Source: Streptomyces halstedii | GTDB taxonomy: Bacteria > Actinomycetota > Actinomycetes > Streptomycetales > Streptomycetaceae | Direction: 5' to 3' | Assembly: GCA_000720535.1 (NCBI GenBank) | Contig: JOAZ01000008.1 | Location: 186,001 to 250,000, forward strand | DNA length: 64,000 nt | In this document: positions 22,935-26,180 of the stretch, piece after piece | Layout of the letters: each line of letters starts with the position of its first letter | How positions within the stretch are numbered: the first letter of the stretch is position 1 | Notes under the pieces: generated by a model | What the model saw: the letters and a program-made list of their open reading frames with translations, nothing else | Told to the model about the DNA's origin: nothing | Databases searched by the model: none | Program-made: the position numbers and the translations under genes

Positions 22935-23046
22935 ATTCCGCTATTGGGACACAACAGACGCAACTACCCACCTCCGGTGTACTGTTGTCCCGCCCATGAT
23001 CCATTTCGGCGTCGCGTCGGTCATCGCGAGGAGTGAGTGAAAGTCC
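22935..23046 (+). promoter_or_regulatory. Probable pheST promoter/leader region
   Basis: A 112-base gap between the upstream hairpin and the pheS start, distinctly less GC-rich than the flanks. With a terminator on its left, pheST needs its own promoter here. GAGGAG at 23028-23033 lies 13 bases before the ATG, a long spacing. An imperfect dyad (gggacacaaca around 22947-22958 against tgttgtccc around 22983-22991) could be an operator. I cannot place -35/-10 boxes with confidence. Confidence 0.4.
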
Positions 23047-24093
23047 ATGAAAGTCTCCGAACTGGAGAGAATGTCGAGAAGCGCGGTATCGGAGATCTCC
23101 GAACTTTCCGACGCCGGGAAGCTTGAGGAATACCGGGTGAGGTGGCTCGGAGGAAAGGGACTGATCCGCCGGGCCAGAGCCGCGATCAAGGAACACCAGG
23201 GCCCGGAGCGCGTCGAGTTCGCCAAGGGCGTCAACCGCGTCGCCGAGGAGATCACCGAGGTCTTAGCCCGGGCCGCCGACCGTATCGAGGACGAGGCCAC
23301 CGCCCGGCGGATCGCCGAGGACTGGATCGACCCCTCGCTGCCCGCCACCGCGCCCCGGCGCGGAGCGCTGCACCCGGTCCGCGTCGTGGAGCTGCGCTGC
23401 GTCGAGATCATGGGACGGCTCGGCTTCGAGCAGGCCGAGGGTCCCGAAGTGGAGACCAGCTACTACAACTTCGACGCCCTCAACATCCCGCGCGACCACC
23501 CCGCGCGCGACATGCAGGACACCTTCTGGGTGGACGAGCAGCGCCTGCTGCGCACCCACACGACCAGCGTCCAGGCCCGTCTGCTGGCCCAGGCCGAGGG
23601 CAGGCCCGTCAAGGTCGTCGTGGCCGGGCGGGTGTACCGCAACGAGGCCGTCGACGCCACCCACCTGGCGATGTTCCACCAACTCGACGGATTCTGGGTG
23701 GACCAGGGGCTGACCTTCGCCCATCTGAAAGGCGTCGCCGTCCACCTGGCCCGCGAGCTTTACGGCGACCGCCGCGTGCGATTCAAGCCCAAGTCGTATC
23801 CCTATACCGAGCCGTCCGTCGGAATCGACGTCGAGTGCGGGCTGTGCCGTGGCTCCGGCTGTGCCGCCTGTCATGAATCGGGATGGGTCACCATCATGGG
23901 TGCGGGAATGATCCACCGGAATGTTCTCAAGGAATTCGGATACGACCCGGACAGGGTTTCCGGATTCGCCTTCGGATGGGGTCTTTCGCGTATGACGACC
24001 CAGATGTACGGGCTCGCGAAACTGCGTCCCGTCTACCGCGGCGACCTCCGTCTGCTGCGCGCTCTGGACGGGAGGCCGGCCCTGTGCGTGTGA
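23047..24093 (+). CDS. pheS: Divergent phenylalanyl-tRNA synthetase alpha subunit (probable resistant target copy)
   Basis: 348 residues with class II motifs intact: FHQLDGFWVD (motif 2), TEPS, and the GxGxxR of motif 3. Pocket residues differ from the bacterial norm: HTTS (171-174) where HTSP/HTSG is usual, Y251-P-Y253 where F-P-F stacks on phenylalanine, and GFAFG-W311-G-L-S314-R where Met and Glu are usual. The Ala controlling side-chain size (E. coli Ala294) is kept as A308. A Cys4 knuckle (C264, C267, C272, C275) sits before the GxGMIHRNVL strand. I recall such knuckles from PheS of other phyla and not from the Streptomyces housekeeping enzyme, suggesting transfer. Codons are less GC-biased than neighbours and residue 73 is a TTA codon (23263-23265), implying bldA dependence. 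Overlaps pheT by 10 bases. Catalytic alpha chain of the heterotetramer charging tRNA-Phe. Confidence 0.92.
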   Translation: MKVSELERMSRSAVSEISELSDAGKLEEYRVRWLGGKGLIRRARAAIKEHQGPERVEFAKGVNRVAEEITEVLARAADRIEDEATARRIAEDWIDPSLPATAPRRGALHPVRVVELRCVEIMGRLGFEQAEGPEVETSYYNFDALNIPRDHPARDMQDTFWVDEQRLLRTHTTSVQARLLAQAEGRPVKVVVAGRVYRNEAVDATHLAMFHQLDGFWVDQGLTFAHLKGVAVHLARELYGDRRVRFKPKSYPYTEPSVGIDVECGLCRGSGCAACHESGWVTIMGAGMIHRNVLKEFGYDPDRVSGFAFGWGLSRMTTQMYGLAKLRPVYRGDLRLLRALDGRPALCV

Positions 24094-26180
24094 ACCTCTC
24101 CCTCCTGCGCCGCTACCGCCCGGAGATGCCCGCCTCCGCCGAGGACGCGTGCGCCCTCCTGGAGGACCTCGGCATCGAGGTCAAGCGTCTCCAGCGGTCC
24201 CCGGACGGCGACGTCGCGACCCTCGAACTCCTCGCCAACCGGGGCGACCACCACTGCTACGTGGGCATCGCCCGCGAACTGGGCGGCCGCCTGGAGCGGC
24301 CCACCCCCGCGCCGCCGTCGTCCGAACCGGCCCCCGAACCCTCCGCCGCCCCCGCCGTGGAGACCGCCACCTGCCTGGCGTTCGGGATCGGCCGCTGCAC
24401 CCTGGACGACGCCAACCCCGGGCTACTGCCCGAGGAGTGGCGGGACGCGCTGGCGCTCAACGACGAGCACACCGGCCTGCTCGCCGTGGACGCGGCGAAC
24501 GTCGTCGGCCGCGAGATCGGCCAGCCGCTCCACGTCTACGACGCCGACCGGGTCACCGGCCCGCTGCGCGTACGGCTGTCCGACGAGGGTGAGCCGGCGG
24601 ACCTCCTCGACAGCGACGAGCCCGTCCCGCTCCCGGCCGGACTGACCGTCGTCGCCGACGACGAGGGCGTCGTGGCCGTCGCCGGGGTGATGGGCACCCG
24701 CCGCACCGCGGTCACCGCCACCACCCGCCGCCTCCTGGTGGAGTCCGGGCTGTTCGACCCGGTCGCCGTACGCCGCGCCGCGCGGGCCCTGCGCCGCCAG
24801 ACGGCCGCCGCCACCCGGTTTGAGCGCGGCGCCGACCCCGGCCTGGTACGGGCGGGCGCCGCCCGCGCCGTCGCCCTCCTCGGCGCGTGGGGCGCGCTCG
24901 CCCCCGGCGCCGCCTGGACCTGGTCCGAGTCCAAGTGCCCGACGGACAGCCGGCTGGAACCCCGGGAGATCACCCTCGACCTCGGCCGCCTCGACACGTA
25001 CTACGCCACCTCCTTCGACCCGGCCGCGGTCGAACGCCGCCTGACCTGCCTCGGTTTCCGGGTCAGCGGGGACGCGGCGCCCGACGGCGGGCGGCTGCGG
25101 GTCGGTGTCCCCGGGCACCGGCTGTGGGACGTCTTCGACCTGGAGTGCCTCTACGAGGAGGTCGGCCGGGTCTGGGGCTTCGACAGCTTCCCCGCCGTCC
25201 TCCCGGAGACCGGCGGGGGCGCCGCCCCCACCGCGCGCCGGCGGGCGCAGTCCGCGCTGGAGCGGGTGCTGGTCGGGTACGGCTTCTTCGAGGTGATGAC
25301 GGACGGCTTCTACAGCCGTTCCGCCCACGAGCGGCTGGGCCTGTCCGCCGGCTCACCGCTCCACCGCCACGTCGAGCTGCGCAACGCCATCGACCGCAAC
25401 TTCTCCCTCCTGAAGAACAACGCCCTCCTCCAGGCGCTCGATGTCGCCGACTACAACCAGCGGCACTCGCTGACCTGCGGCAAGTACTTCGAGTTCACCC
25501 ACCTGTTCGAGGCGGTCGGTGACGACGGCCACCGTGAACTGCCCGTCCTGTGGGGCATGCTGTGGGGCGAGGAGACCTACGGCGCCTGGCAGCACGGCGG
25601 CACGTCCTTCGACTTCTGGTACCTCAAGGGGGTCCTGGAGGAGATGGCCCACGCCTGCGGCGCGCGGGTGGAGCTGAGGCGTACGGCCGAGCAGCCCTCG
25701 CCGGTGGCGGAGCTGCTGCACCCCAACCGTTCCGCCCACCTCGTCCTGGACGGCCGGGAGATCGGCCTGTGCGGCGAGGTCCATCCGGCCGTGACCGCCA
25801 ACTGGAAGCTGCGGACCGAACGCGTCCTGTACTTCGAGCTGGACTGGACGGCCCTGGTGGCGGAGGGGCGGCCGGCCGACGCGGCACCGGTCGACGACAT
25901 GCCGGAGCACCCGCTGCTGCGGCGCGACCTCGCCCTGCACCTGCCGGCCGGCCTGACCGCGGGGGAGGTGCGCGAGCGGATCGAGGCCGTGTCCCCGCTG
26001 CCGCTGGCCTGGGCGCACGTCACCGATCTCTACGAGAGCGGGGACGTGCGGGCCCACACCTTCGAGCTGGCCTTCGAGAACGACAACACGGTGACGGCCG
26101 AGCAGGTCAACGCGGCCATGGGCGCGATCACCGCGCACGTCCTCGACCGCTTCCGGGAGCGGGGCGTCTACCAGAGATGA
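24084..26180 (+). CDS. pheT: Phenylalanyl-tRNA synthetase beta subunit lacking the EMAP/OB domain
   Basis: 698 residues, about 100 shorter than the usual 800. The N-terminal piece (VNLSLLRRY) runs through GIEVKRLQ straight into the segment equivalent to LELxxNRxDxxxxxGIARE, so the EMAP/OB-fold tRNA-binding domain normally inserted at about residues 40-150 is absent. The B3/B4 editing region (GQPLHVYD, GVMGTRRTAVT, RFERGADP), B5, the catalytic-like core and the C-terminal ferredoxin-fold anticodon-binding domain (ending FRERGVYQR) are present. GTG 24084 is chosen because GGGAGG at 24070-24075 lies eight bases upstream; it overlaps the pheS stop, fitting stoichiometric production of an alpha2-beta2 enzyme. 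Probably forms the complete spare PheRS with the preceding gene. Confidence 0.92.
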   Translation: MRVNLSLLRRYRPEMPASAEDACALLEDLGIEVKRLQRSPDGDVATLELLANRGDHHCYVGIARELGGRLERPTPAPPSSEPAPEPSAAPAVETATCLAFGIGRCTLDDANPGLLPEEWRDALALNDEHTGLLAVDAANVVGREIGQPLHVYDADRVTGPLRVRLSDEGEPADLLDSDEPVPLPAGLTVVADDEGVVAVAGVMGTRRTAVTATTRRLLVESGLFDPVAVRRAARALRRQTAAATRFERGADPGLVRAGAARAVALLGAWGALAPGAAWTWSESKCPTDSRLEPREITLDLGRLDTYYATSFDPAAVERRLTCLGFRVSGDAAPDGGRLRVGVPGHRLWDVFDLECLYEEVGRVWGFDSFPAVLPETGGGAAPTARRRAQSALERVLVGYGFFEVMTDGFYSRSAHERLGLSAGSPLHRHVELRNAIDRNFSLLKNNALLQALDVADYNQRHSLTCGKYFEFTHLFEAVGDDGHRELPVLWGMLWGEETYGAWQHGGTSFDFWYLKGVLEEMAHACGARVELRRTAEQPSPVAELLHPNRSAHLVLDGREIGLCGEVHPAVTANWKLRTERVLYFELDWTALVAEGRPADAAPVDDMPEHPLLRRDLALHLPAGLTAGEVRERIEAVSPLPLAWAHVTDLYESGDVRAHTFELAFENDNTVTAEQVNAAMGAITAHVLDRFRERGVYQR

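Follow-up and report, generated by a model that had tools for sequence, protein, structure and literature searches.

In this study, a window of 64,000 nucleotides from Streptomyces halstedii (G000:C8:186001-250000, within a 7.74-Mb genome) was analyzed, in which two genes for an additional phenylalanyl-tRNA synthetase (PheRS) lie at the end of a hybrid nonribosomal peptide synthetase/polyketide synthase (NRPS/PKS) cluster. The first gene, pheS2 (23047..24093, + strand), starts with ATG and encodes an alpha subunit of 348 aa, which scores above the NCBIfam TIGR00468 cut-off (273.1 vs 237.45 bits) and carries T173, D214, Y251 and Y253 at predicted substrate-pocket positions. The second, pheT2 (24084..26180, + strand), overlaps the pheS stop and encodes a beta subunit without the B2 tRNA_bind domain; with GTG 24084 or GTG 24090 as start codon it comprises 696-698 aa, and the longest open reading frame, from 23883, was rejected as too long. 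Neither gene contains a frameshift or an internal stop, so that a pseudogene reading was rejected. A hairpin scan placed a 17-nt hairpin between the assembly-line genes and pheST (22899..22934) and a 14-nt hairpin 3′ of pheT (26187..26219), followed by a gene for a small helix-turn-helix (HTH) regulator with a weak match to LuxR/sigma-70 region 4 (26393..26800, + strand). Thereby, the original prediction, made from the sequence alone, of a complete pheS and pheT following the assembly-line genes as a hairpin-bounded unit beside a regulator was borne out. The pheT without B2 domain, the altered pocket and the cysteine-type thioesterase described below had not been part of it. A simple scan of 22000-27300 gave neither a T-tailed terminator nor a sigma-70-like promoter. 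Third-position GC of pheS is 0.85, somewhat below that of the assembly-line genes and pheT (0.95-0.96).

The cluster starts roughly 3.6 kb ahead of the window and extends to 26800, and according to our own gene calls all its genes lie on the + strand; Pfam was run on all 14 cluster proteins and NCBIfam on 10 of them. Upstream of the window lie, in this order, genes for a formyltransferase-fold protein, a 2-oxoglutarate (2OG)-oxygenase-like protein (single weak match in a PDB sequence search), a branched-chain aminotransferase, an MbtH protein and a thioesterase, the last of which terminates at window base 8. The assembly line within the window begins with an NRPS of condensation (C), adenylation (A) and thiolation (T) domains in the order C-A-T-C-A-T (47..6307, A-domain codes DLFTNALTYK and DAWTVAAVCK; Pfam) and continues with a PKS/NRPS protein consisting of a ketosynthase (KS), a degenerate acyltransferase (AT)-like stretch, T and C (6316..10209; Pfam). 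These are followed by a pyridoxal phosphate (PLP) enzyme of the serine hydroxymethyltransferase (SHMT) family (10230..11579; Pfam, NCBIfam and PDB sequence search) and by the terminal NRPS, C-A-T-thioesterase (TE), with the A code DICHVDAVDK (11594..15559; Pfam). Its thioesterase domain (14759..15556) was identified by matching solved structures as a cysteine-type (Cys-TE), ObiF1-like domain with the motif GHCGG. Next to it lies a gene for a MetA-like enzyme of the homoserine O-acyltransferase family (15556..16437; Pfam PF04204), the product of which scores under the NCBIfam MetA cut-offs. The last assembly-line gene (16559..22894; Pfam and NCBIfam) encodes an A-KR-T protein of unusual make-up: an A-like stretch at the N-terminus, degenerate and recognized by eye, is followed by an acyl-AMP ligase-like A domain, a ketoreductase (KR), T, and an epimerisation-like C domain at the C-terminus. 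Beyond the HTH gene, the next called genes lie on the minus strand, starting from 27191, and look unrelated by eye. In the window, neither Rfam families at gathering thresholds nor tRNAs (ARAGORN) were detected.

The block from the formyltransferase gene to pheT is present with the same gene order and 64-93% identity in four sister species, namely S. termitum, S. albus subsp. albus NRRL F-4971, S. roseolilacinus and Streptomyces sp. ST2-7A. Their called flanking genes gave no more than three weak matches (30-44% identity) to the 104-kb region that surrounds the window cluster. All four sister loci also carry a hairpin before pheS, which differs in sequence (the hairpin 3′ of pheT was examined in the window only), and an HTH-gene homolog downstream of pheT. 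In four of the five clusters, a gene for a PepN-type M1 aminopeptidase of about 880 aa lies 3′ of pheT (L136:13331-15973; L133:13211-15865; L138:13514-16156; L140:13455-16103); it is not found in the window genome. In a search of 16 genomes, this protein showed 77-100% identity among the four sisters and best other matches of about 31%. Possible roles are those of a second self-resistance gene or of a product-processing gene.

A separate, canonical PheS and PheT pair is encoded elsewhere in the same genome at G000:C7:125371-128387 (PheS match C7:125371-126156; PheT match C7:127629-128387), and both proteins match the Pfam models better than the cluster copies do. Thus, the second pheST for which the original prediction had proposed to search was found, and the reading of the cluster pair as the housekeeping PheRS was rejected. 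Cluster and housekeeping proteins share 38% (PheS) and, over the aligned part, 29% (PheT) identity, by which a recent duplication of the housekeeping genes was rejected as well. Both kinds of PheS are also present in each of the seven other Streptomyces genomes carrying the cluster kind.

In the cluster PheT, the B3/4, B5 and CLM domains score above the Pfam cut-offs and FDX-ACB gives a weak match under the cut-off. The B2 domain (PF01588, tRNA_bind), which is matched in the housekeeping PheT, is not matched in the cluster protein, and in an alignment of the two, the cluster copy lacks a single block of over 100 residues. Judged by its domain content, the cluster pheST represents a B2-less PheRS subtype that the models used do not cover, because PheT has no PF01588 match and stays under the NCBIfam pheT_bact cut-off (TIGR00472, 287.3 vs 402.65 bits) while PheS exceeds the cut-off of its own model. 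For aminoacylation, PheRS does not require its B2 domain.

To compare the phenylalanine pocket, 92 PheS sequences were used: 66 canonical ones (eight of them Streptomyces housekeeping copies), eight of the Streptomyces cluster type (five of the window type and three of another type, from the strains G066, G018 and G147) and 18 from metagenome-assembled genomes (MAGs). In window numbering, Ser is replaced by Thr at 173 and Phe by Tyr at 251 and 253 in 8/8 Streptomyces cluster-type sequences and in 0/66 canonical ones, so that the motif Phe-Pro-Phe of canonical PheS reads Tyr-Pro-Tyr (YPY) in the subtype. Counted on the alignment, the counterparts of Ser173, Phe251 and Phe253 in the E. coli chain 3pco are Ser171, Phe248 and Phe250, positions which we take to line the Phe pocket. 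A further exchange at position 214, from Glu (E. coli Glu210) to Asp, was seen in all five copies of the window type but not in any canonical (0/66), MAG (0/18) or other Streptomyces (0/3) sequence. The MAG loci (L032-L048 and L050) were drawn from 80 loci kept out of 192 found; their titles name Deltaproteobacteria, Myxococcota, Phycisphaerae, Proteobacteria and similar groups, with one Klebsiella and one Rhodobacterales that are probably misnamed. They have Tyr at both positions in 18/18 and Thr in 16/18 cases, and their pheT, where complete in the locus (16/18), encodes 683-730 aa. In a PheS tree of 87 of the 92 rows, from which five short or partial sequences had been left out, a branch with 100/100 support separates the 26 subtype sequences from the others. 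The subtype PheS is the sole PF01409 match in 17 of the 18 MAG genomes, and the 18th has a second, weaker match; in those 17, whose completeness is unreported, it is likely the only PheRS. Since it is apparently the sole enzyme there, the B2-less YPY subtype probably charges Phe.

Within Streptomyces, the cluster-type PheT is rare. At E<1e-60 it was found in four of 229 genomes of the genus including the source genome, and the same four stood out among 150 genomes in another search. In a class-level sample of 197 genomes, only the source genome itself was found. A plasmid search with PheT gave matches in 36 records, all below 60% identity. Probably, pheST was acquired horizontally, and transfer from a Myxococcota-like source would be the simplest reading.

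The chemistry of the assembly line can be predicted in part. The A-domain codes DLFTNALTYK, DAWTVAAVCK and DICHVDAVDK, which were taken at motif anchors and not from an alignment to GrsA, are identical in all five species. We take DLFTNALTYK to be an Ala-like code and DAWTVAAVCK to be the Phe code; DICHVDAVDK, the code of the terminal module, which in an obafluorin-type beta-lactone NRPS would load a beta-hydroxy amino acid, has no match among the codes known to us, and its His and Asp are reminiscent of Ser codes. Hence, the near-canonical Phe pocket predicted earlier for one A domain recurs in 5/5 orthologs, with the Phe meaning and the anchor positions being assumptions of ours. The terminal TE motif GHCGG is likewise kept in 5/5 orthologs. 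Among 32 solved structures matched by this domain, the best is holo-ObiF1, the obafluorin beta-lactone synthase (E=1.2e-27). The catalytic triad of ObiF1, given as Cys1146, Asp1254 and His1284 (PMC6668435), aligns with a Cys, an Asp and a His in the window TE, provided that, as counted by us, the positions printed for the chain run 20 higher. The third match, 8w2c, is listed merely as an NRPS and shows Gln-Cys-Asn, the motif reported for the beta-lactam TE SulM (PMC11298585). According to the same source, both ObiF and SulM close four-membered rings via cysteine. On account of the ObiF1-type Cys-TE and these ring closures, our best guess for the predicted product is a beta-lactone or a similar strained ring. 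The SHMT-family enzyme, the closest solved match of which is 7qcw (456 bits vs 376 for the next), passes the SHMT model, stays far under the fluorothreonine transaldolase cut-off of NCBIfam and is predicted to be a probable building-block maker.

Two further assembly-line proteins showed unusual features. In the PKS/NRPS protein (6316-10209), the Cys and His motifs of the KS are kept in 5/5 orthologs, and no AT family was matched. Its AT-like stretch has GHGSG in place of the usual serine motif in all five orthologs; therefore, the extender would have to arrive in trans. In the protein encoded by 16559-22894, an (F/Y)NYLG motif is kept in 5/5 orthologs.

Since the cluster joins an obafluorin-type TE to a second PheRS, we consider it probable that pheST provides target-replacement self-resistance against the cluster's own Phe-containing, probably beta-lactone, PheRS inhibitor. 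The second copy, its subtype, the conserved cluster and the TE type on which this reading builds were all computed from the sequences. The cluster would assemble a small Phe-containing NRPS/PKS peptide, and the Cys thioesterase would release it as a strained, electrophilic product, probably with a beta-lactone like that of obafluorin. The released product would then block PheRS, and the producer would charge tRNA-Phe during production via the foreign-subtype PheRS with its different substrate pocket, which we infer to be resistant. Features expected of a self-resistance synthetase were found, namely a housekeeping copy elsewhere, linkage to the cluster in 5/5 species and substitutions at or near the substrate site. 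The original prediction had also proposed a PheRS inhibitor, and this part is partly supported by the second pheST as a divergent xenolog with pocket substitutions, by its linkage in five species and by the ObiF1-like Cys-TE. Covalent action of a reactive beta-lactone is at least as well supported as its proposal of mimicry of phenylalanine or its adenylate. More tentatively, the product can be pictured as a natural covalent inhibitor, possibly a Phe-derived peptide beta-lactone acylating a nucleophile of the Phe site, perhaps the Ser present in 66/66 canonical sequences and replaced by Thr in 8/8 of the Streptomyces cluster type, to which the producers would be immune through a naturally insensitive PheRS subtype borrowed from Myxococcota-like bacteria.

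Several observations weigh against a role of pheST in self-resistance. The changed pocket residues characterize the subtype as a whole and are not by themselves proof of resistance, because the same letters are present in the apparently housekeeping MAG enzymes, which meet no such product. The E214D exchange could impair ordinary Phe charging. The TE does not settle the product, as a Cys-TE is also able to close a beta-lactam (PMC11298585). With the foreign M1 aminopeptidase of four species, PheRS is maybe not the sole target; this enzyme may act on the product or stand in for a second target. In addition, the concatenated PheS+PheT tree (24 rows, no outgroup) joins the two Streptomyces groups with 97/97. 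PheS alone separates them, and a constrained test with 35 rows does not reject a single Streptomyces clade (p 0.08). Convergent recruitment by two cluster types, as suggested by the PheS tree, was dropped for these two reasons.

A further point on this side comes from the other cluster type and leads to a different explanation, in which a tRNA-dependent biosynthetic enzyme draws its Phe-tRNA or formyl-Phe-tRNA from the extra PheRS, whether or not the latter also has a role in resistance. AcmD and SbzA of the ascamycin and SB-203208 clusters are precedents (PMC12945691), and the window cluster itself opens with a formyltransferase-fold protein. In G066 (L111-L112), G018 (L115-L117) and G147 (L108), a related B2-less pheST lies near an AlaRS-catalytic-like and an AsnRS-like protein and an S66 peptidase (LD-carboxypeptidase/MccF-type), together with ATP-grasp-like and HTTM-like proteins recognized by eye; the assignments come from Pfam on three proteins in G066 and from homology in G018 and G147. 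The AlaRS-catalytic-like protein of G066 also matches the PheT FDX-ACB domain, under the cut-off. NRPS/PKS genes lie beside the related pheST in G066 and G018, none were seen on the 26-kb contig of G147, and a formyltransferase about 26 kb from the pheST of G066 shares 70-73% identity with its counterpart in the window-type clusters. For this other cluster type, a Phe-tRNA-using step appears plausible from its gene content, and the gene set is a candidate for a tRNA-dependent pathway or a Trojan-horse type product. For the window cluster, we regard Phe-tRNA supply as unlikely: homologs of the AlaRS-like, AsnRS-like and S66 proteins are absent at E<=1e-5 from the 104 kb around it and from the four sister stretches, the formyltransferase covers only positions 1-204 of 315 in the Fmt model and stays under its cut-off, and an NRPS A domain already accounts for Phe. 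The earlier statement that no tRNA-using transferase is visible here agrees with our domain searches of the cluster proteins, in which none was recognized.

Another explanation would be that PheST2 has left translation and was re-purposed to activate or ligate a building block resembling Phe. The missing B2 domain and E214D, which is unique to the window-type copies, fit such a role, as does the fact that NCBIfam contains a family of PheS-related ligases, SrmL (NF051887), whose role is unknown. The B2 absence is, however, common to the apparently housekeeping MAG copies, the other PheT domains are recognizable as described above, and PheS passes TIGR00468 but reaches only 136.1 bits with the SrmL model, far below its cut-off of 300; re-purposing is thus improbable. 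A horizontally acquired spare pheST may also be an accidental neighbor of the cluster or be kept there for general stress tolerance, unlinked to the product, and its hairpin-delimited organization as a unit of its own would agree with this. Such a chance neighbor would hardly be expected to keep the same position in 5/5 clusters whose surroundings otherwise differ, save for the three weak matches, and its subtype was found in few genomes of the genus sample and in a single one of the class sample; we give this explanation very little weight.

If pheST confers self-resistance as proposed, the locus would offer a route to testing a new antibiotic mode of action. PheRS is essential, and it has been described as a promising target since its bacterial and eukaryotic forms differ (PMC7373986). 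A conserved cluster that is predicted to make an electrophile and carries a spare target, for which particular residues can be named, provides a starting point, and two of the five carriers are culture-collection strains (S. termitum JCM 4518 and S. roseolilacinus JCM 4335). Also, the B2-less YPY subtype can serve as a marker in the search for more clusters of this kind.

In comparison with known systems, the enzyme itself can be set beside the PheRS of Myxococcota-type MAGs, which share the subtype with its YPY pocket (18/18) and short PheT. They differ in that the MAG enzyme is apparently the sole copy, whereas the Streptomyces enzyme is an extra one to which the window type adds E214D. A resistant second copy of the target synthetase is known for borrelidin (ThrRS), indolmycin (TrpRS) and mupirocin (IleRS), which involve other synthetases and other chemistry than the window cluster. 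Known PheRS inhibitors share the proposed target enzyme; according to a review, ochratoxin A is a Phe analogue targeting PheRS, and a potent class of PheRS inhibitors is cited in a reference list. Among the open-access papers listed in our literature searches, neither a described PheRS-directed biosynthetic cluster nor a bacterial cluster with PheRS immunity was found, in agreement with the original prediction, which knew of none, and the consulted passages of PMC9290621 and PMC10419868 contain no phenylalanyl entry. Extra synthetases linked to both resistance and tRNA-dependent biosynthesis are reported for the ascamycin and SB-203208 clusters (PMC12945691). Like the window cluster, the ascamycin cluster of Streptomyces contains an extra synthetase, the reportedly more resistant AlaRS AcmD; AcmD differs in also feeding the tRNA-dependent AcmF (PMC12945691), whereas no such enzyme was recognized here.

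The closest parallel is the obafluorin cluster, with which the window cluster shares a Cys-TE with the same aligned triad, a PLP enzyme of SHMT fold, which we take to be the fold of ObiH, and a second aminoacyl-tRNA synthetase. The window cluster is larger, an NRPS/PKS hybrid that includes KS and A-KR, and its PLP enzyme differs from the obafluorin one in passing the SHMT model and staying far under the fluorothreonine transaldolase cut-off. The obafluorin beta-lactone acylates a ThrRS tyrosine (PMC9880928), and resistance of the producer is tied to ObaO, a second ThrRS (PMC11252418). There, the spare enzyme is a ThrRS with substrate-binding residues reported as unchanged (PMC11252418); in the window cluster, it is a PheRS of two subunits that belongs to a foreign subtype and has an altered PheS pocket. 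The principle of the self-resistance synthetase was already known; the ObiF1-type Cys-TE beside a second, foreign-subtype PheRS is what the present analysis adds.

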